Assembly: GCA_947379895.1 (NCBI GenBank)
Contig: CANCPA010000008.1
Coordinates: 1-47,634 of the forward strand
Length of the DNA stretch: 47,634 bases
From: Chitinophagaceae bacterium
Lineage (GTDB): Bacteria > Bacteroidota > Bacteroidia > Chitinophagales > Chitinophagaceae
Reading direction: 5' to 3'
Notes under the pieces: generated by a model
Seen by the model: only the letters and a program-made list of their open reading frames with translations
Databases searched by the model: none
What the model was told of the DNA's origin: nothing
Program-made: the position numbers and the translations under genes
Shown here: positions 25,675 to 46,951 of the stretch, piece after piece
Position numbering within the stretch: the stretch's first letter is position 1
Layout: every line of letters begins with the position of its first letter

Positions 25675-25892
25675 AAACTTTGTGTTCCTTGTCTCTTCCC
25701 TTGTGTCCCTTGTGGTAGAACCTATTTAGTAGTAACCTTTATTTCCTTTTTACTCAAGAATTTTTATCACTAAAACCACAAATCATTGTTGTTAATAATC
25801 AATTGCATACAAAAACTTTGTGTCCCTTGTCTCTTACCTTGTTTCCCTTGTGGTAAAACCTTCTAACTAGTATCCTTTATTTTCTTTCTACT
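25675..25892. repeat. Two 80-bp direct repeats (CTTTGTG family)
   Basis: Copies at 25675-25754 and 25813-25892 align over their length at roughly 85 percent by eye: both contain ACTTTGTG, CCTTGTCTCTT, CCCTTGTGGTA and end CTTTATTTYC. The second copy overlaps the last codons of the next gene (stop at 25877), so the first may include the relic 3' end of a duplicated gene. The remainder of the 342-bp gap is empty. Confidence 0.6.
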
Positions 25893-29250: not shown

Positions 29251-29700
29251 TCATAAAATAAAATAGCAAAAGCATTTAGGATAAGTCATGTTCTTAAAAT
29301 AAAAAGTCATATTCATCCACTTTAACTGCTTTGTAGGTTGCAACTCACTTTAATTGGATGCTTTGAGTCGGTTTCATAAAATAAAAAGGAATAAGCATTC
29401 ACTTTAAGTGCGTTGTAAGTATTAGCGCACTTAAAGTGAATGCTTTACGTCAATTTCACAAAATAAAAGTGAAAAAGTATCCAATTATACAGATTTGCAA
29501 CTTGCAAGTCACTTTAAGTGAATGCTTTTAATGAGTTACAGAAATTAAAAAGAAATAAGCATTCTCTTTAACTGCGTTGATACTCACAACGCAGTTAAAG
29601 AGAATGCTTTAGGTAAGTTAAAAGCTACAACGCACTTAAAGAGGATGCTTTTAATAAGTTACAACTTGCAACTCACCTAAAGTGGTTACTTATTATACTT
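29251..29700. repeat. Tandem hairpin array, about 82-bp period
   Basis: A-rich leaders resembling TTCATAAAATAAAAAG begin near 29290, 29372, 29454, 29535 and 29613. Each precedes a palindrome. Two units are perfect: 20-bp arms at 29393-29412 / 29426-29445 and 23-bp arms at 29557-29579 / 29587-29609. The arm sequences differ between these units at several positions, yet each change is matched in the partner arm. Other units are imperfect. The array lies 200 bp before the 318-aa gene. I know no named element with this layout. Confidence 0.7.
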
Positions 29701-30929: not shown

Positions 30930-32909
30930 CTAATTTCCATCCTCCTCTTTATTGTCTTTTTTGCCTTTTCCACCTTTCCTCTCTTTCTTGTCTTTCTTGT
31001 CTTTCTTTTCTTTTTTACCTTTATCACCTGTATTGCCTTCATCAGCACTGTCGCCTTTGCCATACTTAGTTCCTTTTGCATATCCCGAAAATGCCTTCAC
31101 TTCAGTAGGAGGACGTAAAGCAGGTAGTTCCTGTTCTCCACGATGTACTTCTATTAAACTAAAAACATCATCTTTATCATCTACGTTTACAATGGCTAAG
31201 TCAGAGCCTTTTTTTCCACCATATCTAAATACAGCATCTCTTAGGGTAACCACTTCATGATGCCATTTCTTGTCTCCTTTGCCAGTTACAGTCATGGCTG
31301 TTTTCATCGCTTTAGCTCCTGCATCATAATCTAGTTTCCATTTTGAGCCTTCAATACTATCGTACCATACAATCGTTATAGACATTACTTTAGGCTTTGT
31401 ATCTTGAGAGAATCCTTCATGTAGTTTAAAATACAAGGCATCTTTTCCAGTACTATGCTCAAACCCACGGGCAAACCTAGCATAAATGGGTGAGGTGTTT
31501 TTTATAGGGCCACCTATACGCCAAAGTGGAATCGAAGTGGCATCTGGTTCAATTTGGTAAAGTAATCGAGAATAGTTTTCAGGCCAAATTTCCCATCCTA
31601 CATCATTAAATCCAGCTTGATCTCCCCTTTGCCCTACTTGTCCTAATGCAAGAGCCTTCTTGTCTTCGTTTGCAGCACCATATTTGGCATATTCAGCACA
31701 GATTTTTTCCATTCGTTCCAAATTGCTGTGTGATGCCGCTCCAAATTTTGCCTCTGGATAAACTTTGGTATCAGCCGCATCTAAACCTTTATGTAAAGCA
31801 CAAAAAGCATCAGTAGCCGTTTTGGGATAAATTTGACCCGCATACTTATTAAAGAAATAGAAGGAGTAATCAAATCCCTGTTCTTTACTTACTTGCATAG
31901 CAATTTTACTTATATCCCAAACGCTCTGCCCTGCATTCAATGCATTAATTGCTCCCCAATAAAAATTTAAAGGGACATTTAATTGATACCAAGGCCTAGT
32001 CCAAGTTTGATCCATTTCTGAACGTCGGAATAACGAATACCCTTTTGGATCAATTAGATAAGGAAGAAAATTGCTTATAGCAGAACGCTCCCCGCTTAAA
32101 TGATGCCCACGAGAAAGTGCCCCATTCTTAATGCCAAAACCTTCTTTCAGCGTAGAAGTTGCCCAATTCCATAATTCATTTTGATTATTCTTAGTGTCTT
32201 CTTCTGGCGAAACACCATTAAATAGTAACCTTAATTTCAAGCCCGAATCGGAACTAAACAGTTTTGCATATTCTGAAAAGGTCTCTTTTCTAAATTGCCC
32301 CCAAGCCGCATCGTTAGGTTTTAATTTGTACTTAGGGTCAATAGCATCTCCTTTATAGGGACATTCATCTCCAGTACAACCTGTTTTCACTTGGATAAAT
32401 GCAATACGATTTTGCTTTTCTTTTGAATAGCCACTGATATGTTTGGCAATCGCGTTAAGGAACCTAAAATAGTAGGTCTTGTATTCGGAAGATAAATAGT
32501 AGGGGTAAAAGGGGAATTTATCTGCGTGTCGTTTGTCATCTGATACCACCTTAGGTACTCCTTTTTTATACACCCAATCAGGCGTCTTTGGTCCAGCCTC
32601 AAATGAAAAGTAAACAGATATATTATTTTTTGTTGCCCGCTCAATAGCTTGATCCATTGTACTCCAATCATACATCCCATCCGATTTTTCCACTTCATCC
32701 CAAGGGGCATCACAGGATGTTCCTCTCACATAGGGATACACTTTGGGATCCATAGCCTCCCCTCGATCCCATACCCCAAAAGAACTTGTTGATAAGGAAG
32801 ATTGGCCTAATGACAAATTGCAAACACCTATAAAAATAATTAGGAGGTATTTTTTTGTAATCCTAGATACATTAATTCTTCTTTTTTTCATTACCATTTT
32901 ATTTTTCAT
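30930..32909 (-). CDS. Putative TIM-barrel glycosidase, paralogue C, with Lys/Asp-rich tail
   Basis: A 659-aa exported member of the trio. It may start at 32909 or at the internal ATG 32891; both precede a signal peptide ending LSLGQ. Shared blocks are PWDEVEKSDGMYDWSTMDQAIE, TPDWVYKKGVPKV, TGCTGDECPYKGDAIDPKY, GFNDVGWEIWP, ARFARGFEHSTGKDALYFKLHEGF and DVFSLIEV. The catalytic RGE-type segment reads HHLSGERS, so the acid position may differ. After the common end, about 60 extra residues follow, finishing in a highly charged Lys/Asp/Glu/Gly stretch (KKEKKDKKDKKERKGGKGKK). A candidate operator lies 72 bp upstream. Glycosidase function is inferred. Confidence 0.55.
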   Translation of the reverse strand: MKNKMVMKKRRINVSRITKKYLLIIFIGVCNLSLGQSSLSTSSFGVWDRGEAMDPKVYPYVRGTSCDAPWDEVEKSDGMYDWSTMDQAIERATKNNISVYFSFEAGPKTPDWVYKKGVPKVVSDDKRHADKFPFYPYYLSSEYKTYYFRFLNAIAKHISGYSKEKQNRIAFIQVKTGCTGDECPYKGDAIDPKYKLKPNDAAWGQFRKETFSEYAKLFSSDSGLKLRLLFNGVSPEEDTKNNQNELWNWATSTLKEGFGIKNGALSRGHHLSGERSAISNFLPYLIDPKGYSLFRRSEMDQTWTRPWYQLNVPLNFYWGAINALNAGQSVWDISKIAMQVSKEQGFDYSFYFFNKYAGQIYPKTATDAFCALHKGLDAADTKVYPEAKFGAASHSNLERMEKICAEYAKYGAANEDKKALALGQVGQRGDQAGFNDVGWEIWPENYSRLLYQIEPDATSIPLWRIGGPIKNTSPIYARFARGFEHSTGKDALYFKLHEGFSQDTKPKVMSITIVWYDSIEGSKWKLDYDAGAKAMKTAMTVTGKGDKKWHHEVVTLRDAVFRYGGKKGSDLAIVNVDDKDDVFSLIEVHRGEQELPALRPPTEVKAFSGYAKGTKYGKGDSADEGNTGDKGKKEKKDKKDKKERKGGKGKKDNKEEDGN

Positions 32910-32977
32910 ACCAAGTGACGTTTTACTATCAATTAAAGTGCAATGTTAGTGGATATAGCTAAATAGACCTATTGCAA

Positions 32978-33029
32978 AAGCCCCATTAATGTGTCAATTT
33001 GTTTCAAATTGAACATATAATTGGGGCTT
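32978..33029 (-). terminator. Possible terminator of the sulfatase operon
   Basis: AAGCCCCA and TGGGGCTT arms enclose a second complementary pair (CAATTTG / CAAATTG). On the minus strand the hairpin is followed by TTTTG. It lies 66 bp after the sulfatase stop at 33095. It overlaps the candidate operator copy 2, so the palindrome may have a regulatory role instead. Confidence 0.4.
32982..33006 (-). promoter_or_regulatory. Candidate operator, copy 2
   Basis: Matches the other copies: CCCATT, then GTG, then ATTTGTTTCA in the same spacing. It ends 72 bp before the longest start of paralogue C. Confidence 0.5.
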
Positions 33030-33094
33030 ACTATTTAAGAGGTAATGGAATAGTTAAAATGAGTACCACCGAAAGTATTTCATCTCTCTAACTA

Positions 33095-34690
33095 CTAATC
33101 TTTAACCTCCTTCGGTGCTTTTCCCGTCCACTCGTTGCCTGTGCAATCCTTCCACCAAGCAAGCCATTGTGCCTCCATTTTCTGTGCAATTTCAGGGCGT
33201 TTACTTACTAAATTATTCGTTTCTGACCGATCATTGGCAAGGTCATAAAGTTCCCAAGTAGGACCTAAACGCACAAGCTTCCATTGCCCTTCCCGTATGG
33301 CAGCACCCTTGGCAAATTGATAAAACAAAGGGTTATTTCTGTCAATTTTCTGCCCTTTTGTTGCTGGCAATAAACTAACTCCATCTGTAGAATGAATGTT
33401 AGCCTCCTTTGATTCACCCGGAAATTTTGCACCAGAAACAGACAATATCGTTGGCATAATATCCACTAGATGAACTGGATCAGAAATCCAAGTTGATTTA
33501 GGTTTTATTGCGGCAGGCCAATGAACAATAAGGGGTGTACTTATCCCACCCTCATGACTAGTAGTCTTCCATTTGCGTAAGGGTGTATCACTTACAGTTG
33601 CCCAATTTTGACCATAACTAACATAACTCGCTACACTTCCAAATGGCGCTGTTAAATCCACATGATCCACTTTAGGGTCTGTGGCACATGCTCCATTATC
33701 CGAAAGAAATAGAATTAAAGTGTTTTCGAGTTTTCCTTGTTCTTCTAATCGCTTTAATAATCGCCCAATGTTTTGGTCTAACCTATCTACCATGGCGGCA
33801 TATACTTCCATCCGTGTTGCCTCTAGCTTTCGCTCTTCGGGGGATAGATTTTCCCATGTAGGCTTTGTCTCTCCAATTTCCATTGGTGGAAGAGGAGTCG
33901 TTTTAGGATCTACCAATCCAAGTTCCACCTGACGTTTATACCTTGCTAATCTAATGGGTTCATAGCCACCATCATAAACACCTTTATACTTTGCAATATC
34001 TTCAGGCCAAGCGTGCAATGGCCAATGAGGAGCAGTGTAAGCCATATAAAGGAGAAAGGGCTTATCATCTTTTTTATATTCTTCCAGCCATGACAATGCA
34101 CGATCGGTAAATGCATCCGTATCATAAAACTTCGAATCTTGAGGGATATAATTGCTTTTTTCTGGTACACCCTTTTCATCCAATGACCAATGGTTACCTG
34201 CAATCTTATAGGCAGGAATTGGCTGTCCGGGTGCAGCTTCTGTACTTGGATTAAAGTGGTTTTCACACCCGCCAATCATTCCATAATACCGATCAAAACC
34301 CCTTGTTACGGGATTAAATTCCGCATGTTGCTTCCCCGACCAAAGTGTGTGGTAACCTGCTAGCCTTAATACCTCTCCTAAAGTTGCGGTATTCTGAAAA
34401 TTAGGATTTGTCCGCTGATAATAGACTCCAGTCAATAAAGTGGCACGAGTAGGAAAACACTTTGACGTATTATACATTTGCGAAAACTTTACCCCATTTG
34501 CAGCAAGTCTGTCAATATTCGGCGTGTGAATCTCTCCCCCGTAACAACCTATGTCTGAATACCCCATATCATCTGCAAGAATTATGAGAATGTTCGGCTT
34601 GGTTGGTGTCTTTGTAACTTGTGCAAATACATTTAGTTTACAAATTAGCAGTATAGCTAGAATTGCAAATACTTCTTTCTGTTTGTTCAT
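33095..34690 (-). CDS. S1-family sulfatase, CFPTR active site
   Basis: Exported (signal peptide ending VFAQ), 531 aa. The formylglycine-dependent sulfatase pattern is clear: metal-binding ILADDMGYSDIGCYGG, active-site Cys78 in KCFPTRATLLTG (C-x-P-T-R in place of the usual C-x-P-S-R), GYHTLWSGKQH, LFLSDNGACATD, and the C-terminal WKLVRLGPTWELYDLANDRSE. Cys78 must be converted to formylglycine by a maturase not encoded here. Closest in the window is the sulfatase at 36236-37903: both end WWKDCTGNEW. Substrate not determinable. Last gene of a three-sulfatase operon, 26 bp after its neighbour. Confidence 0.9.
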   Translation of the reverse strand: MNKQKEVFAILAILLICKLNVFAQVTKTPTKPNILIILADDMGYSDIGCYGGEIHTPNIDRLAANGVKFSQMYNTSKCFPTRATLLTGVYYQRTNPNFQNTATLGEVLRLAGYHTLWSGKQHAEFNPVTRGFDRYYGMIGGCENHFNPSTEAAPGQPIPAYKIAGNHWSLDEKGVPEKSNYIPQDSKFYDTDAFTDRALSWLEEYKKDDKPFLLYMAYTAPHWPLHAWPEDIAKYKGVYDGGYEPIRLARYKRQVELGLVDPKTTPLPPMEIGETKPTWENLSPEERKLEATRMEVYAAMVDRLDQNIGRLLKRLEEQGKLENTLILFLSDNGACATDPKVDHVDLTAPFGSVASYVSYGQNWATVSDTPLRKWKTTSHEGGISTPLIVHWPAAIKPKSTWISDPVHLVDIMPTILSVSGAKFPGESKEANIHSTDGVSLLPATKGQKIDRNNPLFYQFAKGAAIREGQWKLVRLGPTWELYDLANDRSETNNLVSKRPEIAQKMEAQWLAWWKDCTGNEWTGKAPKEVKD

Positions 34691-34716
34691 TCTTTTATTT
34701 TTTTGAAATAGCTGAA

Positions 34717-36186
34717 TTAATTCTTTTCCTTCTTATCCTTTTTATCTTTTTTGTCTTTATTTTTCTTTTTGTCTACTTTGTCATTACCTACGCTGTCACT
34801 TAAAGGATCATCATCTTCCTTAAATACTTTAGCTTGGCTTACGAAGTAATCGGGTCGTGGTCCCTCAAATACTTTTAGCGCTGCCTCCAACTTTACTTTA
34901 GCGGCTTTTTCTTTGCTGTTTAATTCGGTTTCAGTTAGTGGCGTATTCTCATTATCATCCTTTTGTACATTAAAAAACTTACCATCCGTGTAAAGCTTAA
35001 AGTTGGCATCGTGTACAAACTCGGCTTTGGCAATGGCACCACCACTTGGATTATACCAAGAATATAGCCATTCACGAGGACTACCTTTTTCACCCATTAA
35101 CTGTGGGAGAAAACTACGACCGTCAATTTTCAAATCTGCTGGAATTTTTACACCCGCAGCTTCGCATAGAGTGGGTAAAAAATCTGTTGCTGAAATCAAG
35201 TCAGCAGAAATTTTCCCACTAGCAAAATGACTAGGCCAAGTACCAATCAAAGGCACATGCGTACCCCATTCAGTAGTAGTTCCCTTGCCACCTTTCACAT
35301 CTTGCCCCTTAAATCTTGCTGGCATTCCTTTAGCAGTTCCATTGTCGCCAAGAATAAGCACCATCGTACTCTCACGTAATTTTAACTCATCTAGCTTGGC
35401 TATTAGTTTGCCAATCAGTTTATCCGTGTAAGCTGTCATATCGGAAAAATGACCACTAGTTCCTTTTTTACCCTTTCCATTTTGTATTTCCAAATAGTCC
35501 GGACAATCAGGCGTGGCATCAAAGGGTGAGTGAGTAAGCATCATTGGATAGTAAAGAAAAAATGTTGAATCTTTTTTACGTGTAATGAAATCAAGCGCAT
35601 AATCACTAATAATATCAGGTCCATAAGCATCTTTTGGGCTTTCAAATGGTTTACCGTTCATTTCAATTAATGGGTTTTTATAGCGACTGCCTTTACTTTT
35701 CAAATGCCAAAGTGCATATTCATCAAACCCAAAATGACTTGGATTATCATAGCTTTTTCCTAATTGCCATTTGCCTGTAACACAGGTAGTATAACCTGCA
35801 TTCTTTAATAGATTACCAAAAGTCTTTTGCGTTGTATCTAAACTACCAAAGTTTGTATAGTTTCTACGATTGCTCATACCTGTCATCAACTCAACCCTTG
35901 TTGGTGTACAAAGTGGCTGCACATGACACTCTTCAAAACGCACACCCTTTGCGGCAAGCTGATCCATTATAGGCGTCTTATAACTTTCACCACCATTTGC
36001 TGTAACATTCTCATAACCAAAATCATCAATCAGTATAAGTACGATATTGGGTTTTACAAAGGATTTTGAAGTTTTATTGACTGGATTTTTAGTCTTGCTT
36101 TTCTGTGAGAATACGAAACAGGGTACAATCACTAAAGCAAGAAGTGTCAATAAATAATTGCAACTTTTCATCTCTTTACTACTCAT
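34717..36186 (-). CDS. S1-family sulfatase, CTPTR active site, Lys/Asp-rich tail
   Basis: 489 aa, exported (signal ending CFVFSQ; internal ATG at 36171 is the likelier start). Core motifs are LILIDDFGYENVTANGG, Cys93 in PLCTPTRVELMTG (C-x-P-T-R variant), CVTGKWQLG, MVLILGDNGTAKG and the GTHVPLIGTWP substrate-pocket region. It is shorter than the other four and lacks their WxLYDL block, having FKLYTDGKFFNVQKD. After residue about 460 it ends in a charged tail (DKKKNKDKKDKKDKKEKN) like those of paralogue C and two other sulfatases. Middle gene of the sulfatase operon, 49 bp after the first. Confidence 0.9.
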   Translation of the reverse strand: MSSKEMKSCNYLLTLLALVIVPCFVFSQKSKTKNPVNKTSKSFVKPNIVLILIDDFGYENVTANGGESYKTPIMDQLAAKGVRFEECHVQPLCTPTRVELMTGMSNRRNYTNFGSLDTTQKTFGNLLKNAGYTTCVTGKWQLGKSYDNPSHFGFDEYALWHLKSKGSRYKNPLIEMNGKPFESPKDAYGPDIISDYALDFITRKKDSTFFLYYPMMLTHSPFDATPDCPDYLEIQNGKGKKGTSGHFSDMTAYTDKLIGKLIAKLDELKLRESTMVLILGDNGTAKGMPARFKGQDVKGGKGTTTEWGTHVPLIGTWPSHFASGKISADLISATDFLPTLCEAAGVKIPADLKIDGRSFLPQLMGEKGSPREWLYSWYNPSGGAIAKAEFVHDANFKLYTDGKFFNVQKDDNENTPLTETELNSKEKAAKVKLEAALKVFEGPRPDYFVSQAKVFKEDDDPLSDSVGNDKVDKKKNKDKKDKKDKKEKN

Positions 36187-36235
36187 TTTACTTACTTTAT
36201 TATACTTTAAATTTCAGTTTTTTTGCAAGAATATC

Positions 36236-37903
36236 TTATTCCTCTATTTCATCATTCTTTTCCTTTTTATCTTTCTTGTTCTTTTTATCTCTCTTCTCCG
36301 ATTTGTCTTTCTTTCCATTACCATCCCATTCGTTCCCTGTGCAATCTTTCCACCATGCTTGCCATTGAGTATCTAGTTTTTGTACTAATTCTGGTTTTTG
36401 GTCTGCCAAGTTGTGCGTCTCCGTCCTATCAGTAGCCATGTCATATAGTTCCCACGTTTTGCTATCTCTCACCATTTTCCATTGCCCATCAATAACAGCA
36501 GAACCATTCGAAAACTGAAAAAATAGGGGTTTAGTACGTTCAATGGGCAGTGCCTTAAAAGCAGGCAACAAACTGATACCATCCATTGGTTGAATATTGG
36601 TTTCTTTAGACTTGCCGGGATATTTAGCACCTGTGATTTCTGCTAGTGTAGGCATGATGTCTATTAGATGTGCAGGTACACGATTCCAGTCTGTTTGTGG
36701 TTTAATATTGGCCGGCCATTGTACAATAAAGGGTGTACCAATGCCCCCTTCAAAGCTATCTTGCTTCCATTTTCGCAAAGGTGTATTACTTACGGTAGCC
36801 CATTTTTGTCCGTAGGTAATATACGTTGCCACACTGCCCATTGGTGCTGTAGAATCTACATTTGCTACTTTGGGTGTCTCCGCACAACCACCATTATCCG
36901 ACAAGAACATAATAATGGTATTATCTAATTTGCCTTGTTCCTTTAATTTATTAACCAAACGCCCCACGTTTTGATCTACTCTATCCACCATGGCAGCGTA
37001 GATTTCCATTTTCATAGCTTCTGTACGAAGTTCTTCTGCCGAAAGGGGTGTATCAATTACCTTTTTCCTCTTTTTGCCTTCTGTTGGTGGGAGAGGGGCT
37101 GTTTTAGTATCCACCAATCCAAGTTGAATTTGTCGCTTATAACGAGCCTCTCTTACCGCATCATACCCCCCGTCATATACGCCTTTGTATTTGGCAATAT
37201 CATCCGGCCATGCTTGTAAAGGATAGTGTGGAGCGGTGTATGCCATATATAGCAAAAATGGTTTCTTGTCCTTTTTTGATGCATCAAGCCATTCAAGTGC
37301 CTTATCCGTAAAGCCATCTGTGTCGTATTTTACCGTTTGCCAAGGAGTTACTTTTTTTAAATCATCCATCCACGGCTTAACCTTAGTATTGTCTTTTGCT
37401 TTACCATCAGGGCTAGGTTGACCAGGAATCTCCACACTCCATGGGTTAAAGTGGTTTTCTGCACCACCTATCATACCATAATAATGATCAAACCCTCGTG
37501 TAACAGGATTAAATTTAGAGTGGTGCTTACCCGACCACCAAGTATTGTAACCTGCCGGTTGAAGTACCTCGCCCAAAGTTGCAGTATGCGAAAAATTAGC
37601 CACTTCGGTTCGTTGAAAATATACACCCGTTACTAAACTTGCTCTTGAAGGAAAACACTTAGCACAGTTGTGCATTTGAGAAAACTTAACACCGTTAGCA
37701 GCAAGACGATCAATATTTGGGGTATGAATCTCACTTCCATAACACCCTAGATCGGAATAACCCATGTCGTCAACAAGTATAATAACAATATTTGGTTTTG
37801 CTGCTGTCTTTGTACTTTGGGCAAATATCGCCATTGGAAAAATGACCAATACCACTACGAGTGTGGCAATTATTTTTGAGATACTCATAATTACTATTTT
37901 CAT
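36236..37903 (-). CDS. S1-family sulfatase, CFPSR active site, Lys/Asp-rich tail
   Basis: 555 aa, exported (signal ending AIFAQ; the ATG at 37888 is an alternative start). Motifs are ILVDDMGYSDLGCYGSE, Cys83 in CAKCFPSRASLVTG (canonical C-x-P-S-R), TWWSGKHHSKFNP, MFLSDNGGCAET, and WKMVRDSKTWELYDMATDRTE. The catalytic domain ends WWKDCTGNEW, as in the 33095 sulfatase, showing recent common ancestry; here a tail follows (KKDKSEKRDKKNKKDKKEKN). First gene of the three-sulfatase operon, with a candidate operator 72 bp upstream. Confidence 0.9.
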   Translation of the reverse strand: MKIVIMSISKIIATLVVVLVIFPMAIFAQSTKTAAKPNIVIILVDDMGYSDLGCYGSEIHTPNIDRLAANGVKFSQMHNCAKCFPSRASLVTGVYFQRTEVANFSHTATLGEVLQPAGYNTWWSGKHHSKFNPVTRGFDHYYGMIGGAENHFNPWSVEIPGQPSPDGKAKDNTKVKPWMDDLKKVTPWQTVKYDTDGFTDKALEWLDASKKDKKPFLLYMAYTAPHYPLQAWPDDIAKYKGVYDGGYDAVREARYKRQIQLGLVDTKTAPLPPTEGKKRKKVIDTPLSAEELRTEAMKMEIYAAMVDRVDQNVGRLVNKLKEQGKLDNTIIMFLSDNGGCAETPKVANVDSTAPMGSVATYITYGQKWATVSNTPLRKWKQDSFEGGIGTPFIVQWPANIKPQTDWNRVPAHLIDIMPTLAEITGAKYPGKSKETNIQPMDGISLLPAFKALPIERTKPLFFQFSNGSAVIDGQWKMVRDSKTWELYDMATDRTETHNLADQKPELVQKLDTQWQAWWKDCTGNEWDGNGKKDKSEKRDKKNKKDKKEKNDEIEE

Positions 37904-37975
37904 ATTTGTTTGCTTCTACGTTTTTTAACGTTGTAAAATTAATTTCTTAGACAGATAAGGTAGTACTGATAAAGG

Positions 37976-38000
37976 CTCATTTAAGTGCTAATTTGTTTCA
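37976..38000 (-). promoter_or_regulatory. Candidate operator, copy 3
   Basis: CTCATT, then GTG, then ATTTGTTTCA with the same spacing as copies 1 and 2. It ends 72 bp before the longest start of the first sulfatase. Confidence 0.5.
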
Positions 38001-38293
38001 TATATCAAAAACAAAAGAGCTTAGGAACGTGAATTTAATAAGGAAAGTAAATTCTGTTATTTGAATCAGTAAGTAAATAGTAAATGAATAATTGCTTACA
38101 AGCTTTCAAAATTTCATGTGTCGTGATTTCGAATGATTTATCAATCAAGCCTGAAATAAATGTGAATGACATTAATTAGTTTAAACGACCTTAAACCCTT
38201 TGATCGTCATGTCGACGATTGGAGACATCTCATCGAAAATAGTCCATGTCATTGTAATTCAATAAATGTTTTTCGATTGATTAATGGAATTAC

Positions 38294-38331
38294 AAAAACC
38301 CTATTAGGGACCTAAGTCCCTTATAGGGTTT
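38294..38331 (-). terminator. Terminator of the 38-46 kb operon
   Basis: AAACCCTA...TAGGGTTT outer arms and AGGGAC/GTCCCT inner arms form a near-perfect 16-bp stem with a four-base loop. On the minus strand it is followed by T5. It lies 110 bp after the stop at 38441. Confidence 0.7.
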
Positions 38332-38440
38332 CACTGTCAGCGAAAAACTTTTAAGAATCCAACAGATAATTCAATACCTTCTATTTATAAAAAGACCTTT
38401 ATTCTATGTACAATTTGCGGCAAGCCAAATTCTAGTAACT

Positions 38441-40516
38441 CTATTCGTTAATTTTAATAACCCTTGTCATATTCTTTTCCATAGAAAAGGTAAGCTTCCA
38501 CCCTTTTGTACTTTTAATAATGGTGATAGGTGTATTAGATACAATTTCACTAAATGAAGGTTTCCCTTTTAGCCCCAAAGCAGCGGTTTCAACGTCAACC
38601 TCCACTGTATCTGGTGCATTTGGTCCCCAAACAGTCAAGTAAATAGTTTCTCCACGACCAAAACGCTGCAACTGAACCTCTTTGGAATTTGAAGTGGCAT
38701 AGGTAACTGGCTCCCAACCGGCAAGGCGAATGGCGAGGTTTGCAGGTTCGTATCGATCCCACAATGCCTTGTGTTCTGGTTTAGTGTACCAAGAATAATC
38801 CTTATCATAATTGGGGTGGTTTGGAGGATAAAAATATAAAACTTGAACGGGACAAGCAAATCCATAAGCGGTGGTTTTCGCAAGAGCATTCTTAATAACG
38901 TCCAAAGTGGGAGACTCTTTATGTTGTGGAATATTTCCAGAAGAGATTCGATAGGATTTGCGACCCACCACCATACGCTCAAAATCAAAACCACCAAGCT
39001 CTATTTCTTTAAAACTACCTTCTTGCCAGCCACCCGCTAATACAGAGGCTAAGAAAAATTGTCCCCCATTATTCTGCCCTGCGGGTTTATTGGTAATTTT
39101 TTTCCATGAATATTCTTTCATACCAGCTGCTTCATGAAATAATCCCCCTGTTTTCAGTTTTTCTCGATAGGCATCAAAAAGCTCATAGTTGGTAAATTGT
39201 GTATGAATACAAACACGCCCCTCTTGATCAAACGTTAGCGGATGATCTAAATAAGCAAAATGATCGCGACGGTAATTTAGAAAGTTACTCCATCCACCCA
39301 ATCTATCCCAATGGATGCCAATAAAATTACCTAGCTTTCTTAAATCTGTTGCCTTTCGCAAATACATATTCGCATAAACGGGCATTTTTTTATCGGCAAA
39401 AAGATCTGGGTCACAGTTGTGTGGAAAATCAATACCACCTTCTGATTCTTTAAAAGTACCAATACTACCATCTGGATTATAAGCGATACTATTAATCAAT
39501 GCCGATCTTCCTTCAATAATTAATGGGCTTTTCGAATCTCCTTTTTTCTCGTAATGTTGAATGGTGGTGGCGTTTTCAATAGCATTAATTAGTTGTTCAT
39601 TCGTTTCTAACTTTTTTGCATTTTTTATGTCTTGAATGCGAGCAGAAGTTTTAGTGTAAGCCAAGTATTCTTTTAGTTCAGGGTCGATTTGTTTAGTTGT
39701 TTTAAAGGTTTCATTCACAAAATTCATATTTATCCAATCGTGATGATGACCTAGAGCCGTCATGACTTTTTTGTCAATTTGATAGTAATCTGGATACCAA
39801 TTGTAATATTTAGCTAAAGCATCTCGAAAACCCCAAGTGCCATCTATAGTATAAATTCGAAAACAAAAGGGTGCTTTTGAAGGGAATTTTTTAGTATCCT
39901 TCGATAATCCAAAAGCCATCTGTAAACGAATGCCATCTGCATCGGCACCAACTTCAAACACACAAGGATGGGTAGGAAGTATTGCCATCGCAATTCCACC
40001 ATTATCTGTCCATACGGCTGGAATGGGTACTAGATTATTACTTTCCGAATAGGCAGGGTTATCATTTGTGATGATTGGACAATTACTTAAAGATTTGCCC
40101 CATTTCCATCCTATTGTATTTACCGGCAAATTAAAACCAAGCCATAAACCACGGTCTTTATCTGTAAGATTTTCTAGTACACCGGTAACTTCAATAAAGC
40201 CATTCCCTTCACTAACAATTGCCGAAATACTAGCTTGTAGAGAACTTTGTACCGTTAAATAGAGTTTGCCATTTTTTGAGATTGCTTTACCTAGCATCTC
40301 TACCTTTTTAGTACTATTGGGTTCCCGAAGGAAAAAGCCGCCTGACAATCCTTTCTGAATTTTTTCATTGTCTAATACTATATTACTGACTATCCCATTT
40401 TTTTCAAATGATAGATGTAAGCCTGCATGATCCGTAAGGCTTACGGTTTGTGCTTTTGCTGTAACAGTGGATAACAGTATCCAAATTAGATTTAAAACAA
40501 CTTTACTTTTTTTCAT
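38441..40516 (-). CDS. Large exported protein, putative glycosidase of unknown family
   Basis: 691 aa with a signal peptide ending TAKAQ. Residues 25-225 form a beta-sandwich-like N-terminal domain (HLSFEKNGIVSNIVLDNEKIQ, GFIEVTGVLENLTDKDRGLWLGF) of the type that precedes many glycosidase barrels. The middle (GFRDALAKYYNWYPDYY, IGIHWDRLGGWSNFLNYRRDHF, LFHEAAGMKEYSW) looks like a TIM barrel. A C-terminal beta domain ends TFSMEKNMTRVIKI. I cannot name a family or catalytic residues. It is the last gene of the operon, 18 bp after the frameshifted sulfatase, so a role in the same polysaccharide pathway is likely. Confidence 0.5.
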   Translation of the reverse strand: MKKSKVVLNLIWILLSTVTAKAQTVSLTDHAGLHLSFEKNGIVSNIVLDNEKIQKGLSGGFFLREPNSTKKVEMLGKAISKNGKLYLTVQSSLQASISAIVSEGNGFIEVTGVLENLTDKDRGLWLGFNLPVNTIGWKWGKSLSNCPIITNDNPAYSESNNLVPIPAVWTDNGGIAMAILPTHPCVFEVGADADGIRLQMAFGLSKDTKKFPSKAPFCFRIYTIDGTWGFRDALAKYYNWYPDYYQIDKKVMTALGHHHDWINMNFVNETFKTTKQIDPELKEYLAYTKTSARIQDIKNAKKLETNEQLINAIENATTIQHYEKKGDSKSPLIIEGRSALINSIAYNPDGSIGTFKESEGGIDFPHNCDPDLFADKKMPVYANMYLRKATDLRKLGNFIGIHWDRLGGWSNFLNYRRDHFAYLDHPLTFDQEGRVCIHTQFTNYELFDAYREKLKTGGLFHEAAGMKEYSWKKITNKPAGQNNGGQFFLASVLAGGWQEGSFKEIELGGFDFERMVVGRKSYRISSGNIPQHKESPTLDVIKNALAKTTAYGFACPVQVLYFYPPNHPNYDKDYSWYTKPEHKALWDRYEPANLAIRLAGWEPVTYATSNSKEVQLQRFGRGETIYLTVWGPNAPDTVEVDVETAALGLKGKPSFSEIVSNTPITIIKSTKGWKLTFSMEKNMTRVIKINE

Positions 40517-40534
40517 ACAATTTCTAATTAAAAT

Positions 40535-42191
40535 TTATTCTGTCTTTTGTTTACGTGAACCTTTTCCCTTTTTATCTTTTTTATCTATTTTAGCTTCATT
40601 CTCTTCTTTTTCCGAATCAACTGAATCTGATTCGTTTCCCTTACTAACAGATTTATACCATTCTGCCCAACTTTTTACCATTGACTGAACCAATTCAGGA
40701 TGAGTACTAGCTAAATCTTTAGTCTCTGCCCGCTCATTCGACAAATCATAAAGTTGCCAAACCCCTTGATGCGTCCTTGCCTCTAGGTGACAATCGCAAA
40801 GCCTTCAAATTACCTTGTATCTCGGCAGAAAACTTTTCATAATTCCACAACAATTTACGCTCAACAATGGGTGCTTTTTTTAGTTGAGGTAACAAACTTT
40901 GCCCATCCAATTGATTTAGTTTTCGCCCTTCATATTCAGAGGGATAATGCAAATTGGCTAAGTCTAATACCGTTGGAAAAATATCACAAATAGAGCCTGC
41001 TTGCTTAGAAACGATACCCGGTTTGCCAATTCCTTTTGGCCAATGGAAAATCATGGGTGTACCAATTCCTCCTTCGTACAATGTTGATTTGTGACCTCGC
41101 AGGGGCGTATTACAAACGGCAGCACCTACATCGTTAATCCGTTTTTCTGTACCACGATCTCCCATTTGCTGTCCAAAGGGCAATGTGGCTGGTACACTTT
41201 CGGCACTAGCACCATTGTCACTCATAAAAAAGATAGCCGTATTATCAAACAGGTTATTTTTTTTAAGATAATCAAAAAGGCGACCCAATTCTACATCCAA
41301 ACGATAGACCATTGCTGTGTGAACTGCCATAGCCTGTTGATAATATTCTTTTTCTTCTGTAGTAAAAGAATCCCACGAGTTAGATTTTTCGTCAATTGAA
41401 CTAAGCGAACATATTTTTGGATTGATAATGCCTAACGCAACCATGCGATCATAACGTCGTTTGCGAGCAGCATCTGTACCTGACTTAAAAACATTTAAAT
41501 ATCGTTCCACATCGGCTCTTGGAGCTTGCAATGGCCAATGCGGAAGATGCGAGGCGTAATACAAAAAGAAAGGTTTAGTCGTTCCTTTGTTTACCACTTC
41601 TCCCTGTAAAAACTTCATCGCATAATTAGCATGTTCGGTTTCCATGTACCATTTCTCAACAGGTACGGTCATATCCTTCTCCGCGTAGGTACGCCCATCT
41701 AGTTGTATATCACGAACCTGTTTTTCATCAGTTGGCCACCAGTGAATGGCACTTAGTCCAGCACCGAAATAACGCTGAAAGCCCATTTGCAATGGGGCGG
41801 GTTTTATATGCCATTTACCTACCATCAAAGTGGTGTACTCTCCTTTCAATGCCTCTGCAATCGTCATCGCTCCACGGTTAACATTTCCTGCTTTGTGATC
41901 AGCACCAATTCTTTGAGGAGATTGTCCGGTCATTAGCGACGCTCTACTTGGTGCACATTTAGCATTATTATAAAAATTCGTAAATAGGATTCCTTTTTTA
42001 GCCAGTAAATCCAAATGCGGTGTCTCTGCATCACCACCCATACAACCTAAGTCAGCATATCCCATATCATCTGCTAGAATGATTAGGATGTTCGGTTTGG
42101 CTTGTGGTTTTGCAACTTGAGCATATATTGTTATTAGGGGAAAAAGACAACAAAAGGTTAGTTTAAAAACAATTTTTAATACATTTTTCAT
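40535..42191 (-). pseudogene. S1-family sulfatase split by a frameshift, Lys/Asp-rich tail
   Basis: The first frame (42191 to 40746) gives 481 aa with signal peptide, ILADDMGYADLGCMGG, Cys79 in KCAPSRASLMTG and FFMSDNGASAES. It then runs out in LSPRGKDASRGLATL and stops. The second frame (to 40535) supplies the missing end: THQGVWQLYDLSNERAETKD, then a charged tail (DKKDKKGKGSRKQ). The frames join near 40785-40790, where removing one base of the CC on the minus strand yields ...LSLEARTHQGVWQLYDL. The restored length, about 550 aa, fits the neighbours. The protein may be inactive or truncated; a sequencing error is possible. Lies 121 bp after the next sulfatase. Confidence 0.85.
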
Positions 42192-42312
42192 TCTTTATAT
42201 CTTTTTTACAATGATTTGAATTCTATTTTACTTTTCATTTTTTGAAAAAATTATAACATTCGATGTTAACTTTCCTAATGCAAGTAATTAGTAATTGAAA
42301 TTGTTTCAAAAA

Positions 42313-43875
42313 CTACGAATTGTCTTTATACTTTTCTCTTAATTTTTTCAATTTTAGTTTTAATTCTTTTACTAAACTAGCATATAAAGGATCGTTAAAT
42401 ACGTTTTTCATTTCTTGTGGGTCTTTTTTACGATCATATAATTCCCATTCATCTATGTCATAAAAATAAACTAGCTTATATTCTTTAGTAACAATGCCAT
42501 AATGCTTTTGTACATTATGCTCATTTGGAAAATCTGAATAATGATAGTAAACAGCCTCTCGATTCCACTTATTTGAATGACCATTTAAGAGTGGCATAAA
42601 ACTTTTTCCTTGCATATCATTTGGCGCTTCAATTTTTGCAGCTTCTAAAAATGTTTGTGCAAAATCTAAATTTTGAACCATTTCGTCATTGGTGATTCCT
42701 GGTTTGATTACATTAGGCCATCGAATCATTAATGGCGTTTTAAAAGACTCATCATAAATAAATCGTTTATCAAACCAACCATGTTCACCCAAATAAAATC
42801 CTTGATCAGAAGTATATATTACTATCGTATTTTTAGCTAATCCACTCTCGTCAAGATAGTTTAACACTCTACCCACATTATCATCTACTGAAGAGACACA
42901 TGCTAAATAATCCTGCATAAAACGCTGATATTTCCAGTTCATTTTTTGCTTGGTGTTCATATTGGGCCAGTTTATTTTAAATGAATTACTTATGGAATCT
43001 ATTATTGGGTCATACAGTGCTTTTTGTTGCAAACTTAGTCTGCTATATTCTTGCCCAAGTCCTTTACCTTGCGATATTTTAGGTAAGACCTCTCCCATTT
43101 CTTTAATAATTTCTGATCTTACTTTGGAATCTTGACTATACTTCATATCAAGTAATAGACTCATTTTAGCAGTTTTTGCTGCAGTTCCACGATTGCTGTA
43201 ATCATCGAAAAGTGATTCAGGCATTGGAAACACTTTCTTACTAAACTCTTCGAATTTTTCGGGGCTAGGCCACCACGGTCTATGAGGCGATTTATGCAAA
43301 TACATGAGCATAAAAGGTTTTGCCTTATCTCTTTTTTTATCAAGCCAGTTAATTGTTAAATCTGTAATAACATCTGTTGCATAACCAGTAATTGTTGTAT
43401 CTCCTTTGTTAGTAATAAAATCTGGATTAAAATAATCTCCCTGCCCTGGCAAAATCATAAACTCATCAAAACCCTTGGGGTTATTTCCTAAATGTAATTT
43501 GCCATACATGGCTGTTTGATAGCCAGCGTTTTGAAACAATTGAGGAAATGTCATTTGGGATTCATCAAAAGGTTTTCTATTATCAGCCTTACCGTTCATG
43601 TGTGAATGTTTTCCAGTAAGTATGGTTGCTCTTGAAGGTTCACAAATAGAGTTGGCTACACAAGCATTGGTAAACAAAACACCCTCCTTTGCAATTCGAT
43701 CGATATTAGGAGTTTTTATTAATTTATCTGAATAAGCACTAATAGCCTGATAACCATGATCATCAGACATGATAAATAGGATGTTCGGTTTGGCTTGTGG
43801 TTTTGCAACTTGAGCATATATTACAATTGGCAAAGAAAGTAATACCACAATTAAATTAAAAACAATATTTTTCAT
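42313..43875 (-). CDS. S1-family sulfatase, CEPSR active site
   Basis: 520 aa, exported (signal ending VIYAQ). Motifs are FIMSDDHGYQAISAYSD, Cys78 in SICEPSRATILTGKHSHMNG, TAMYGKLHLG, TSDQGFYLGEHGWFDKRFIY and TPLMIRWP. This pattern resembles the GlcNAc-6-sulfatase-like branch of S1 (SulfAtlas S1_8/S1_11-type) more than the other sulfatases here; that subfamily placement is from memory. No charged Lys/Asp tail, ending LREKYKDNS. A 46-bp stretch over its signal-peptide junction (43776-43821) is identical to one in the neighbouring sulfatase. Confidence 0.9.
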   Translation of the reverse strand: MKNIVFNLIVVLLSLPIVIYAQVAKPQAKPNILFIMSDDHGYQAISAYSDKLIKTPNIDRIAKEGVLFTNACVANSICEPSRATILTGKHSHMNGKADNRKPFDESQMTFPQLFQNAGYQTAMYGKLHLGNNPKGFDEFMILPGQGDYFNPDFITNKGDTTITGYATDVITDLTINWLDKKRDKAKPFMLMYLHKSPHRPWWPSPEKFEEFSKKVFPMPESLFDDYSNRGTAAKTAKMSLLLDMKYSQDSKVRSEIIKEMGEVLPKISQGKGLGQEYSRLSLQQKALYDPIIDSISNSFKINWPNMNTKQKMNWKYQRFMQDYLACVSSVDDNVGRVLNYLDESGLAKNTIVIYTSDQGFYLGEHGWFDKRFIYDESFKTPLMIRWPNVIKPGITNDEMVQNLDFAQTFLEAAKIEAPNDMQGKSFMPLLNGHSNKWNREAVYYHYSDFPNEHNVQKHYGIVTKEYKLVYFYDIDEWELYDRKKDPQEMKNVFNDPLYASLVKELKLKLKKLREKYKDNS

Positions 43876-43945
43876 TTTATTTGGTTGCTTTATTTGTAAT
43901 AAAGAACTTATATCATTCCTTTTAAAATACTTTTAGCTATTAAAT

Positions 43946-44620
43946 TTATTTTTCTACATAAGGACGAACGCTCTCAATAAGTAATCGATAACCCGCTTCA
44001 TTGAAGTGTAATTGGTCAGAGGCAAATAATTCAGTTCTTGGCAATCCCTCTGCATTAATAACCATGTTATAGGTATCAATGTAATGCAGTTTTGGATTTG
44101 ATTTTATAAAATCCTGAATATATTGATTTACTTTTTGTTCTTCCATACGCAGTCTCCATCGCTTTACACTTGGCTTTAAAGAAATGTAATAAATCTGTGT
44201 TGCTGGGAGTTTAGCTAGTACCAATTCAATTAGTTTTTTAAAGTCTTCAAAAACTTGTTCAGGTGTTTAGCCACTTGATAAATCATTATCACCTGCATGA
44301 AAGAAAATCTTTTTAGGAGAATAAGGTAAAATTATTCGGTCAGCAAAATTGTACGAATCAATAATACTTGAACCTCCAAAACCACGGTTGAATACGGGGT
44401 ATCCAGCAAAGTCTTTTTCAAGTGTTTTCCACTTCACAATTGATGACGACCCTACGAATTCTATCCCACCTTTTGGAGGAGGATTAGTACTATCAACCCT
44501 TTCAAAAGCAGCAATTGCCTTCTCCAATTTAGCCGTTTTATCTGTTTTTTGTGCCGATAATACTGATAAGAAGAACGCTGAAAAAAGCAAGAATAAATAA
44601 CATGTTTTTTTCATTTTCAA
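43946..44620 (-). pseudogene. SGNH/GDSL hydrolase interrupted by one in-frame stop
   Basis: Reading from 44620, a signal peptide (ending LSAQ) leads into an SGNH esterase: FVGSSSIVKW (block I serine), FNRGFGGSSI (block II), FHAGDNDLSSG (block III Asn/Asp). A TAA at 44267-44269 then stops the frame, but the same frame continues TPEQVFEDF... to SDQLHFNEAGYR (block V Asp-x-x-His) and ends at 43946. Relatives usually have Lys where the stop sits (GKTPEQ), so a single AAA-to-TAA change explains it. Full restored length is 224 aa. Such enzymes typically deacetylate sugars. Located 21 bp after the 598-aa gene in the same operon. Confidence 0.85.
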
Positions 44621-44641
44621 AGTTTAATATATTTAGTAATC

Positions 44642-46438
44642 CTATTTGACTGGTCTTATTTTAGTAATTATACGAATATCATTAGCAAATTTCAAAATGT
44701 CAGTTTTTAAATTTAAGGGTAGCTTGTCGCTTTCATCAGATAAATGTTGTAATTGATTTGCAATGGCACTAAACTTTTTAATGGCATCGTTTTCAGACAA
44801 AGTTTTCGACCTATACCAATCATAGTGAACACTTCCTGCTTCTATAAAAAGTTTCATTCCTTTTGCCAAAATGTATATTGAGTGATAGGATTCATTAATA
44901 AAAACAGCCTTTTCTTTTGGTAAATCTTTAGTTAAGCTAGGCAATTTAGGTATCGTTTTTTCCAACCAATTAATGACTTCTGTTTTTTCTTTTAAATACA
45001 TTTCTATAGGCTTTGCAACAATTGAGTTTTGAACTCTCCATTGAACAGCAGCATCTATTTCATCTGAAATTAGTGGATATAATATGGTACCAGGCTTTTG
45101 AAATAAATCATCAATTGCCTTCATATATCTAACATTGTTAAAATAATCTTTATCAAGATAAACAGCGAGGGGAAAGGCAGAATGATTTAGTGAACTAGTG
45201 CCATTTATTCCAACTATTTTTTGTAACATGGGTTCGGTTTCATAAAAGATGTCTATTAATTTATTAGGTACATCCTTTCCTAAATATTCGTGTACAGCAT
45301 TACTCAATACTTTTTTGGGATCAGCAGTAGGAGTATAGCAATATTGAGTGAGCATATAGGCATTCATTCTATCGAAATTGATATCTGTACAACCTCTATC
45401 CCAAAAAAAGGTACGTCCATTTACGATGTCAACTCCTTTTTTAATGCCCTCATTTACAGATTTCTTCCACCAACGTGGCAAAACACAGGGATAAAAGCCT
45501 TGCCCTAGGTATTCACAATCTGTTAGAATATTTTGAGAAATGGGGTTACTTGCAAACAATTGCTTTTGATCTGCTTCGGGAATAAAAGCAAAGGGTGGAC
45601 ATAGCGTATTCTCTTCGGGCCAAGTATTATCTTCCATCATAATAATTTCAGGATATTTAGCCAAAGCCTCAAACACCTGCCGATGTGTTTTATAAGTATG
45701 GAAATAGTCGTGAGCAAAAACGGTTCCTTTAATATTTAGTTCTTTGCATACTTCGTTCAGTGCACCAACCCACACCTCAAGCCATTCATTGTTATGTTCA
45801 AGGTCATATTCATCAAACTTTAAAAGCTCTCCATTACCTTCACACATCCAAACTGTAACGCCTTTTAGCAGTGGTAATTTCTTTTTTAGTAACCTAATAT
45901 GATTTTTCAGCAACTCACCAAGAAATGGATGTGGCATGATTAGTTTGCCCTTGGCATCGAATAATTCTGGTTTTATTTTTTTTACCAACTGAACATCTTG
46001 TACAGGAAAAATAGGGAAAGGATAGCCGTAATTAAATTCAATTCCATTATTCACACATCCTTTGTAAGCCTTTAAAATCATTTCCTCCTGCCATTTATAT
46101 TCTTCACTATTTTGAAAACGCTTAAATTCAGGCATCAATTCTTCTAACCATGGAATGGTAGTATAATTTCCTTTTAAAACACCATTGATTCGTTCCTCAA
46201 CATTTTGTTTAAATAAGTTAGCCCTATAATGTGGGGCAAAGCATTCATATCCTGCAACTCCCCAACTAGCTATGTCTTTAAACCATTTTTCACTATTTGT
46301 CGAATTGGTCAACATTCCTGTAAGCACTGGTTTAACTTTATATTTTGACTTTTGGGCAGGTAGTAATTCGGTAAGACCCAATATGAAAAAAAGAAATGGG
46401 GTAATTGCTTTTATAGAATAGGGAGAAAAAAAGTACAT
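44642..46438 (-). CDS. Exported putative TIM-barrel glycosidase (alpha-glucuronidase-like)
   Basis: 598 aa with an N-terminal signal/hydrophobic segment ending LLPAQ. The central part (GVTVWMCEGNGELLKFDEYD, GTVFAHDYFHTYKTHRQVFE, IIMMEDNTWPEE, CEYLGQGFYPCVLPRWW, NGRTFFWDRG) looks like a barrel with acidic residues at strand ends, loosely recalling GH67/GH115 alpha-glucuronidases and GH20-like enzymes. The C-terminal half is helical. The family call is weak. It is the first gene of the minus-strand operon that continues through the SGNH gene, two sulfatases and the 691-aa protein. Confidence 0.45.
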   Translation of the reverse strand: MYFFSPYSIKAITPFLFFILGLTELLPAQKSKYKVKPVLTGMLTNSTNSEKWFKDIASWGVAGYECFAPHYRANLFKQNVEERINGVLKGNYTTIPWLEELMPEFKRFQNSEEYKWQEEMILKAYKGCVNNGIEFNYGYPFPIFPVQDVQLVKKIKPELFDAKGKLIMPHPFLGELLKNHIRLLKKKLPLLKGVTVWMCEGNGELLKFDEYDLEHNNEWLEVWVGALNEVCKELNIKGTVFAHDYFHTYKTHRQVFEALAKYPEIIMMEDNTWPEENTLCPPFAFIPEADQKQLFASNPISQNILTDCEYLGQGFYPCVLPRWWKKSVNEGIKKGVDIVNGRTFFWDRGCTDINFDRMNAYMLTQYCYTPTADPKKVLSNAVHEYLGKDVPNKLIDIFYETEPMLQKIVGINGTSSLNHSAFPLAVYLDKDYFNNVRYMKAIDDLFQKPGTILYPLISDEIDAAVQWRVQNSIVAKPIEMYLKEKTEVINWLEKTIPKLPSLTKDLPKEKAVFINESYHSIYILAKGMKLFIEAGSVHYDWYRSKTLSENDAIKKFSAIANQLQHLSDESDKLPLNLKTDILKFANDIRIITKIRPVK

Positions 46439-46481
46439 GTTAAATTTATTTATAATAAAAACATTTGGTATTAAAATAAAA

Positions 46482-46514
46482 AGTCCCCCCGAATATTTGG
46501 CGTACGGGAGGACT
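46482..46514 (-). terminator. Terminator of the Spy-like gene
   Basis: AGTCCCCCCG (46482-46491) pairs with CGGGAGGACT (46505-46514), one wobble. On the minus strand a T-rich tract follows. It isolates the next operon from the Spy-like gene. Confidence 0.75.
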
Positions 46515-46546
46515 AATACTTAGCATTAAGGGTTTAGGGGTAAATT

Positions 46547-46951
46547 TTAATTCTCTTTATCCTCTTTTTTCTCTTTTTCTTTACCACCATTTTTGTTTTT
46601 CATTTTTTCTTTCCTTTCTTCTACCCAAGTATCAAACTTTGTTTTTTGCTCATCTGTCAAAATAGCTTTGATAGATGCACTTGCAGCTTCATTTACAGCC
46701 TTTGCTTCTTTCTTGCCTGCCTTTTTATCTCCATCAGTCGCTTTTGCTTTGATAGAATCTAACTTTTTGACACTTTCCAACTGTATCAATTGAATTTTTG
46801 ACGATTGATCTGCAGTTAAAGAAAGTTCTTTACTTAATTCTTTGACAAACTGTTCTGCACGCTGTTGAGCGTTTTTCTTAGGACTTCCATCTTGAGCGAA
46901 CACAGACATTGTACTCATTACTACTGCAAAAACTAAAATTACCTTTTTCAT
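46547..46951 (-). CDS. Small Spy/CpxP-like (LTxxQ) periplasmic protein with charged tail
   Basis: 134 aa with a signal peptide ending SVFAQ, then a helical protein with two LTxxQ-type motifs (LSLTADQSSKIQLI about 45-58, ILTDEQKTKFDTW about 97-109), the hallmark of Spy/CpxP-like periplasmic chaperones common in Bacteroidota. The central and C-terminal parts are rich in Lys, Asp and Glu, ending KNKNGGKEKEKKEDKEN, similar to the tails on four nearby enzymes. Monocistronic, with its own terminator. Possible role: periplasmic stress or folding of the exported enzymes (inference). Confidence 0.75.
   Translation of the reverse strand: MKKVILVFAVVMSTMSVFAQDGSPKKNAQQRAEQFVKELSKELSLTADQSSKIQLIQLESVKKLDSIKAKATDGDKKAGKKEAKAVNEAASASIKAILTDEQKTKFDTWVEERKEKMKNKNGGKEKEKKEDKEN

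Follow-up and report, generated by a model that had tools for sequence, protein, structure and literature searches.

Several predicted exported enzymes encoded side by side in a Chitinophagaceae genome end in stretches dominated by lysine and acidic residues, which raises the question of whether these ends have a common job or are simply tolerated. We examined them across the window, by which we mean the whole 47,634-nucleotide stretch of DNA that was analysed. The original prediction, made from the sequence alone, had pointed to five K-rich C-termini, and all five lie where it placed them: on a GH42-like enzyme (paralogue C), on sulfatases 34717 and 36236, on a third, frame-broken sulfatase and on a Spy/CpxP-like protein, with the first three belonging to intact enzymes (Table 1). 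In paralogue C and the three sulfatases, the tails span 27-43 residues (boundaries by eye), consist largely of K, D, E and G, and have a charged-residue fraction of about 40-75%. They follow complete domains and have close paralogues without a tail, as had been proposed. Sulfatase 33095 was also correctly described as tail-less, and its orthologues in two other genomes (G121 and G010, introduced below) likewise carry no tail.

Table 1 Tailed proteins of the window, their C-terminal tails and the neighbouring controls.
Feature	Position	Strand	Basis or remark
Paralogue C, predicted exported GH42-like enzyme, tailed	30930..32909	-	ORF; weak Pfam Glyco_hydro_42 match
43-residue K/D/E/G tail of paralogue C, boundary by eye	30933..31061	-	16 basic, 12 acidic, net +4
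Tailed sulfatase 34717	34717..36186	-	Pfam Sulfatase; best solved match kappa-carrageenan sulfatase S1_16
27-residue tail of sulfatase 34717, boundary by eye	34720..34800	-	net +5; also in G121 and G010
Tailed sulfatase 36236	36236..37903	-	Pfam Sulfatase; tailed L130 orthologue 87% identical
28-residue tail of sulfatase 36236, boundary by eye	36239..36322	-	net +3; 18-bp tandem repeat
Sulfatase, frame-broken in this assembly	40535..42191	-	catalytic frame 40746-42191; tail in another frame
38-residue tail piece of frame-broken sulfatase, boundary by eye	40538..40651	-	weakest constraint of the set
Spy/CpxP-like protein with K/E-rich end; set aside	46547..46951	-	basic ends common in its family
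Tail-less sulfatase 33095, control; short K/E stretch at end	33095..34690	-	tail-less in 3/3 genomes compared
Sulfatase without K/D tail, control	42313..43875	-	ORF; Pfam Sulfatase
Tail-less GH42-like paralogue, control	25877..27601	-	ORF; C-terminal charge
Tail-less GH42-like paralogue, control	20807..22576	-	ORF; C-terminal charge

In the window, the locus holds genes for sulfatases, GH42-like enzymes and a melibiase-like enzyme, to which the corresponding locus of the sister species adds a LacZ-type GH2, GalT (galactose-1-phosphate uridylyltransferase), GalK (galactokinase) and a formylglycine-generating enzyme. Since both loci encode sulfatases together with galactose-type enzymes, the substrate is probably a sulfated galactan. 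In a Pfam search, 34717, 36236, 40746-42191, 33095 and 42313 all pass the PF00884 (Sulfatase) cut-off; the catalytic frame of the frame-broken enzyme stops at 40746, and its intact, tailed sister orthologue is 549 aa long. Paralogue C matches Glyco_hydro_42 weakly (E 6.3e-5, 22.9 bits against a cut-off of 21, over ~90 residues only), with no NCBIfam match and only weak matches in the PDB. The cysteine within its hydrophobic N-terminal stretch is absent from the G010 orthologue.

To define the tails strictly, we required at least 9 lysines and at least 18 K, D, E and G residues among the last 30. The background sample comprised 40 stretches covering ~0.8 of 5.3 Mb (about 15% of the genome) and 552 mechanically called ORFs, which a home-made hydrophobicity rule divides into 335 cytoplasmic, 140 exported and 56 membrane proteins, with 21 open at the 5′ side. 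None of the 552 has a strict tail, compared with 4 of 30 ORFs in the window, which was itself chosen for having tails; a smaller half-sample of the same genome likewise gives 0 of 272. All four strict-tail ORFs of the window are classed as exported by the same home-made rule. Genome-wide, a DNA pattern for KKDKK has 57 matches against 5 for its reversed control. An interspersed DNA repeat accounts for 35 of them and frames shorter than 100 codons for 12; 6 fall in the window tails and 4 within longer frames, where they sit at least 93 residues from the protein end. A KxKKxKK-type pattern yields 8 matches (reversed control, 4), 5 of them in window tails and the other 3 on contigs C96 and C136; word searches of this kind overlook looser tails. 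A Pfam census of the genome's sulfatases found 20 over the cut-off, of which 18 have readable C-termini, the other two running off contig ends and being excluded. Four are tailed: three in the window, counting the frame-broken one with its tail in the other frame, and one on contig C95. The tails therefore extend beyond the window cluster.

Tails equally common on cytoplasmic proteins, which would have counted against the original prediction, were not seen: none of the 335 sampled cytoplasmic-class ORFs has a strict one. A KKDKK end does, however, occur on a cytoplasmic protein of another family genome (L149), which we take to be RNase R-like, so the motif is not exclusive to exported proteins. 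That end is one of six places outside this genome that match KKDKK[KNDE]KK, a pattern found in 7 of 117 family genomes; the others are the tail of the G010 paralogue C and four N-terminal or internal stretches.

The Spy/CpxP-like protein was considered as a fifth member of the tailed set and set aside, because basic ends are common in its family. Its homologues occur in 132 of 294 family genomes. Among 20 readable homologues from outside the cluster's lineage (30 loci less 3 of the cluster's own and 7 with the wrong ORF), the last 25 residues have a net charge of at least +2 in 16, a charge fraction of at least 0.5 in 7 and at least seven lysines in 5. What stands of the predicted five-protein set is paralogue C and the three sulfatases. 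The label "Spy-like" is a loose one, since the protein falls below the cut-offs of both PF07813 (LTXXQ; 20.9 bits, cut-off 24.3) and the CpxP NCBIfam model (26.8, with 148 required). Ends as lysine-rich as that of the window protein are less common in the family.

The closest relative found, Chitinophagaceae MAG C1_MAG_00011 (L130), was taken as the sister species G121. All five of its orthologues, the Spy-like one included, are present, intact and tailed. In G010, which belongs to another genus of the same family, the orthologues of paralogue C, sulfatase 34717 and the Spy-like protein are all tailed. Paralogue C is rare in the family: at E<=1e-90 it is matched in 3 of 394 genomes, this one included, and the best match in each carries a tail. 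Farther afield, 22 of the 24 listed phylum-wide matches to sulfatase 34717 outside this genome have no such tail. Eight Opitutae-type homologues of 36236 (L131-L138; L137 was excluded from one alignment owing to a stop) are also tail-less, their C-termini being short K/E stretches (for example, APKERGEE).

Comparison of the window with G121 shows how the tails have changed. Across the five tails, Spy-like included, 162 aligned codons hold 41.1 synonymous and 55.9 amino-acid changes. We simulated neutral evolution with rates taken from the fourfold sites of six locus genes. Runs matched on synonymous changes gave a mean of 215 amino-acid changes (minimum 140; 0 of 226 as low as 55.9), and runs at a fixed fourfold divergence of 0.69 gave a mean of 165 (minimum 135; 0 of 150 as low). 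Removing the Spy-like tail leaves 52.4 changes against 140 expected, again with 0 of 150 runs as low. Gene by gene, the neutral runs as low as the observed value number 0 of 485 for paralogue C, 1 of 486 for 34717, 0 of 319 for 36236 and 0 of 752 for the Spy-like protein, although gaps within repeats in the 34717 and 36236 alignments could flatter their constraint. For the frame-broken sulfatase, the evidence of constraint on the tail is weak (12 of 663). The paralogue C alignment is gap-free, and at a divergence of 0.4 this tail alone shows 12 changes against 30.5 expected (0 of 150 runs as low). Amino-acid changes in the tails are a quarter to a third of the neutral expectation, and 13 of the 47 substitutions are D/E or K/R exchanges. 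The loss of tails in a sister species in the absence of constraint, which would have counted against the original prediction, did not occur; G121 has retained them under constraint.

The same prediction had treated the tails as one acquired module, a view that the evidence does not support. Each tail is a continuation of its own protein's C-terminus. In 36236 and its sister orthologue, K/D repeats are flanked by a K stretch on one side and by the closing E-x-E-E on the other, and both flanks resemble the ends of tail-less relatives. Between the tails of different proteins we saw no common sequence beyond composition, their low complexity precluding a proper test of homology. Tandem repeats of 9 and 18 bp span much of the tails (9 bp in paralogue C, 18 bp in 36236), and the 36236 tail is 6 codons shorter than that of its sister. 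Because these K/D repeats lie within the protein's own C-terminus, and given the tandem repeats and the 6-codon length difference, the sulfatase tails look home-grown; they also look younger than the tail of paralogue C, which is far more widespread. In G759 (L204), the sulfatase adjoining a tailed paralogue C likewise shows a longer K/R/E end, suggestive of a gain of its own.

Of 12 genomes behind named loci, 4 contain close relatives of paralogue C (E<=1e-90). One of these genomes is an Opitutae MAG, and among 384 genomes of its class such relatives are present in 9 (E<=1e-150), the MAG being counted in both sets. We selected C-termini of the family by homology, without regard to lysine content. 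All 17 readable ones are net positive, 3 from Bacteroidota and 14 verrucomicrobial (net +2 to +5); this count leaves out G402 and one of two G572 places, which run into contig ends, G731, where homology ends early, and G401:C6:16594, which is tail-less at 38% identity, and it keeps the other G572 end, which is short and basic with a charge fraction of 0.33, and the G759 member as read from L204. Nine hand-picked tail-less GH42-like relatives have a net charge of 0 or below. The verrucomicrobial loci have a GC content of 54-63% where measured, compared with 35% in the window, and arginine partly stands in for lysine. Since all 17 ends are net positive in both Bacteroidota and Verrucomicrobiota, the tail is, as judged from these C-termini, old in the paralogue C family. 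In a 20-row tree, the three Bacteroidota genes group together (85/88) within a group that includes five verrucomicrobial genes (96/99); a few rows retain tails, a 457-residue piece makes up one of the verrucomicrobial rows, and very long branches lead to the tail-less outgroups. Window paralogue C is 72% identical to a verrucomicrobial gene and 67% identical to one in its own family. This nesting is as expected if the gene had moved between phyla. The type IX sorting domain PF18962 ends three of four relatives of, or near, the GH42-like family, present in the three long ones and absent from the shorter fourth; two carriers were found by the paralogue C search, and the third (L171:14157-16460) is related by its N-terminus and neighbours only. 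The tailed window proteins have no PF18962 match at E <= 0.001.

Over the last 25 residues, net charge is positive in all 21 tailed enzymes (mean +4.5, sd 1.5). Six of these are sulfatases chosen for their lysine-rich ends, a choice that leans towards positive values. By comparison, 72 highly charged windows from elsewhere in the genome (27 residues, at least half charged) average −0.1 with an sd of 2.8. At fixed lengths of 20, 30 and 35 residues, the sd in the tailed enzymes is 1.8-2.0. With boundaries drawn by eye, 24 tails range from +1 to +6 (mean 4.1, sd 1.26) while their basic residues number from 6 to 16; multinomial draws give an sd of 4.05, with 0 of 5000 as narrow, a result overstated by the chosen boundaries and the relatedness of the sequences. 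Charge patterning is unremarkable, none of eight tails being unusually well mixed or segregated relative to shuffles. The best reading of this computed charge bias is that the tails may be kept for composition and a net charge of about +4, not for exact sequence. Composition indicates that they are probably disordered. AlphaFold gave poor models of paralogue C (4 rows, mean pLDDT 45) and 36236 (16 rows, mean pLDDT 57), the latter with a helix at 535-554 inside the low-confidence tail.

In sequence terms the tails are real, conserved and constrained, and a function for them is plausible, specifically a common electrostatic job on exported enzymes. We tentatively favour, at somewhat less than an even chance, the reading that these polyampholyte tails make weak electrostatic contact with polyanions, likeliest a sulfated glycan and otherwise the cell envelope. 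The exported enzymes of a putative sulfated-galactan locus would carry probably disordered C-terminal polyampholytes of modest net charge (~+4), which in the sulfatases would have arisen in situ from short repeats coding for K, D and E. Selection would then retain composition and charge and not exact sequence, and the tails would act as weak, multivalent electrostatic "hands" that concentrate polyanions locally at the enzyme. The polyanion would in the first place be the sulfated glycan substrate and in the second the anionic envelope, where the tails may retain non-lipidated enzymes. By analogy, substrate capture fits a basic, weakly net-positive end on the enzymes of such a locus, and envelope retention fits nearly as well. 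Several observations count against this reading: the many acidic residues leave a small net charge, tail-less sulfatases manage without tails in the same cluster, most of the listed matches to 34717 and the eight Opitutae-type homologues of 36236 are tail-less, and the tail of the frame-broken sulfatase shows weak constraint.

In envelope retention taken alone, the tails would bind LPS, capsule or peptidoglycan and hold soluble enzymes at the periplasm or cell surface, the sulfated substrate being irrelevant; this leaves unexplained why adjacent tail-less exported sulfatases need no tail. We consider it unlikely, although no clear lipobox was seen by eye in the tailed window enzymes (paralogue C having its N-terminal cysteine), and the PF18962 ends of three long GH42-like relatives indicate that the C-terminus serves addressing there. 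A tail that merely keeps the enzymes soluble, hydrated and extended, with no specific partner, would account for the high fraction of charges of both signs and for the conservation of composition rather than sequence. Hydration alone, however, permits acidic or neutral tails, yet the homology-chosen ends of the paralogue C family are positive in 17 of 17 cases, and we rate this explanation as rather improbable. Co-assembly, with the tails clustering the enzymes of a pathway or condensing with the polyanion, would agree with the presence of tails on several enzymes of one locus and with the longer K/R/E end of the G759 sulfatase beside its tailed paralogue C. Mutual binding of like-charged tails is not obvious, and co-assembly seems to us very unlikely. 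We put equally little faith in a neutral build-up of Lys/Asp codons through replication slippage where C-termini tolerate it; the original prediction had named a neutral expansion of Lys codons as the dull alternative. The 9- and 18-bp repeats and the 6-codon length differences between orthologues are what slippage would leave. Amino-acid changes nevertheless fall far below the neutral expectation, the sister retains every tail, tails persist in two phyla and in GC-rich loci, and lysine codons are mixed (AAA 24 and AAG 14 in three tails, against AAA 110 and AAG 44 in the bodies). Slippage is disfavoured on this evidence; it accounts for how tails may arise but not for their persistence.

Should the tails prove to bind substrate, enzymes could be tuned to sulfated polymers by a simple and portable means that is readable from sequence composition alone. 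The tails would also offer a clean test of selection on the net charge of a protein end and not on its sequence, because AT-rich and GC-rich loci keep a similar tail charge with different residues. Low-complexity ends are easily overlooked since many alignment tools mask them, and a search of open-access papers turned up nothing on lysine-rich tails of bacterial sulfatases or of polysaccharide-locus enzymes.

Among known systems, the catalytic bodies of the window sulfatases belong with the bacterial S1-type sulfatases (7all, carrageenan sulfatases S1_16 and others), whose solved members include kappa- and iota-carrageenan sulfatases. Unlike in those structures, the proteins continue into a tail: among the best 60 matches listed per query, the best aligned stretch ends ahead of it. 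Like the type IX sorting domain, which also occurs on relatives of paralogue C, the tails are C-terminal add-ons of exported Bacteroidota enzymes, but PF18962 is a folded domain with a profile that the tailed window proteins do not match. The mycobacterial adhesin HBHA has a short, repetitive, lysine-rich C-terminus that varies between species and binds heparan sulfate, a sulfated glycan; its repeats are of K/A/P without acidic residues, whereas the window tails are of K/D/E/G and sit on enzymes (PMC3293801). In the human endosulfatases Sulf-1 and Sulf-2, a charged, mostly basic hydrophilic domain (27% basic, 13% acidic, predicted to be poorly structured) extends a sulfatase of a sulfated polymer and is required for heparan sulfate, though not for small substrates, and for cell-surface localisation (PMC3890690). 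As described there, that domain is flanked by the catalytic and C-terminal regions and holds a large share of the protein's charge (PMC3890690). The window tails are 27-43 residues at the extreme C-terminus and so fall outside the Sulf class; at most they would "work like" its basic domain, as a functional analogue and not a homologue. A bolder proposal, possible but on the unlikely side, is that the tails would be a bacterial answer, reached by convergence, to the basic domain of Sulf: disordered short ends held near +4 that would enable glycosidases and sulfatases to hold on to sulfated polymers. They would be of long standing in a single glycosidase family common to Verrucomicrobiota and Bacteroidota, and sulfatases next to it would have acquired them several times once the locus had passed between phyla.

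The GH42-like proteins of this group end in three ways, with a charged tail, with a sorting domain or with neither, the second kind being added by long relatives that carry a type IX sorting domain at the C-terminus. Close to paralogue C, the GH42-like enzyme with a charged tail, lies a tandem array, and ORF calling in the window listed no ORF of at least 80 aa across that stretch.

Features of the window and of related loci
Feature	Location	Description
Tandem array	29282-29682, window	units of 82 bp (~4 copies) and 41 bp
GDSL-like hydrolase	43946-44620, window	split into two ORFs
Long GH42-like relative	L160:982-3288	C-terminal type IX sorting domain
Long GH42-like relative	L171:14157-16460	C-terminal type IX sorting domain
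Long GH42-like relative	L169:9419-11737	C-terminal type IX sorting domain

An interspersed repeat of ~130-140 bp occurs genome-wide (for example at loci L032, L044, L051, L105, and L120), and 25 copies with full flanks were aligned. Its reading frames are short, and it holds 35 of the 57 matches to the KKDKK DNA pattern in the whole genome.

The sister MAG L130 carries an unbroken GDSL-like hydrolase of 222 aa, whereas the one in the window is split. Its frame break and that of the tailed sulfatase at 40535-42191 lie near each other; the two breaks are either true or an assembly error.

Related sulfatases from other Bacteroidota families (L281 and L279) bear different K-rich charged C-terminal tails, each preceded by a GRHAN stretch that is shared with the tailed C95 sulfatase of this genome.
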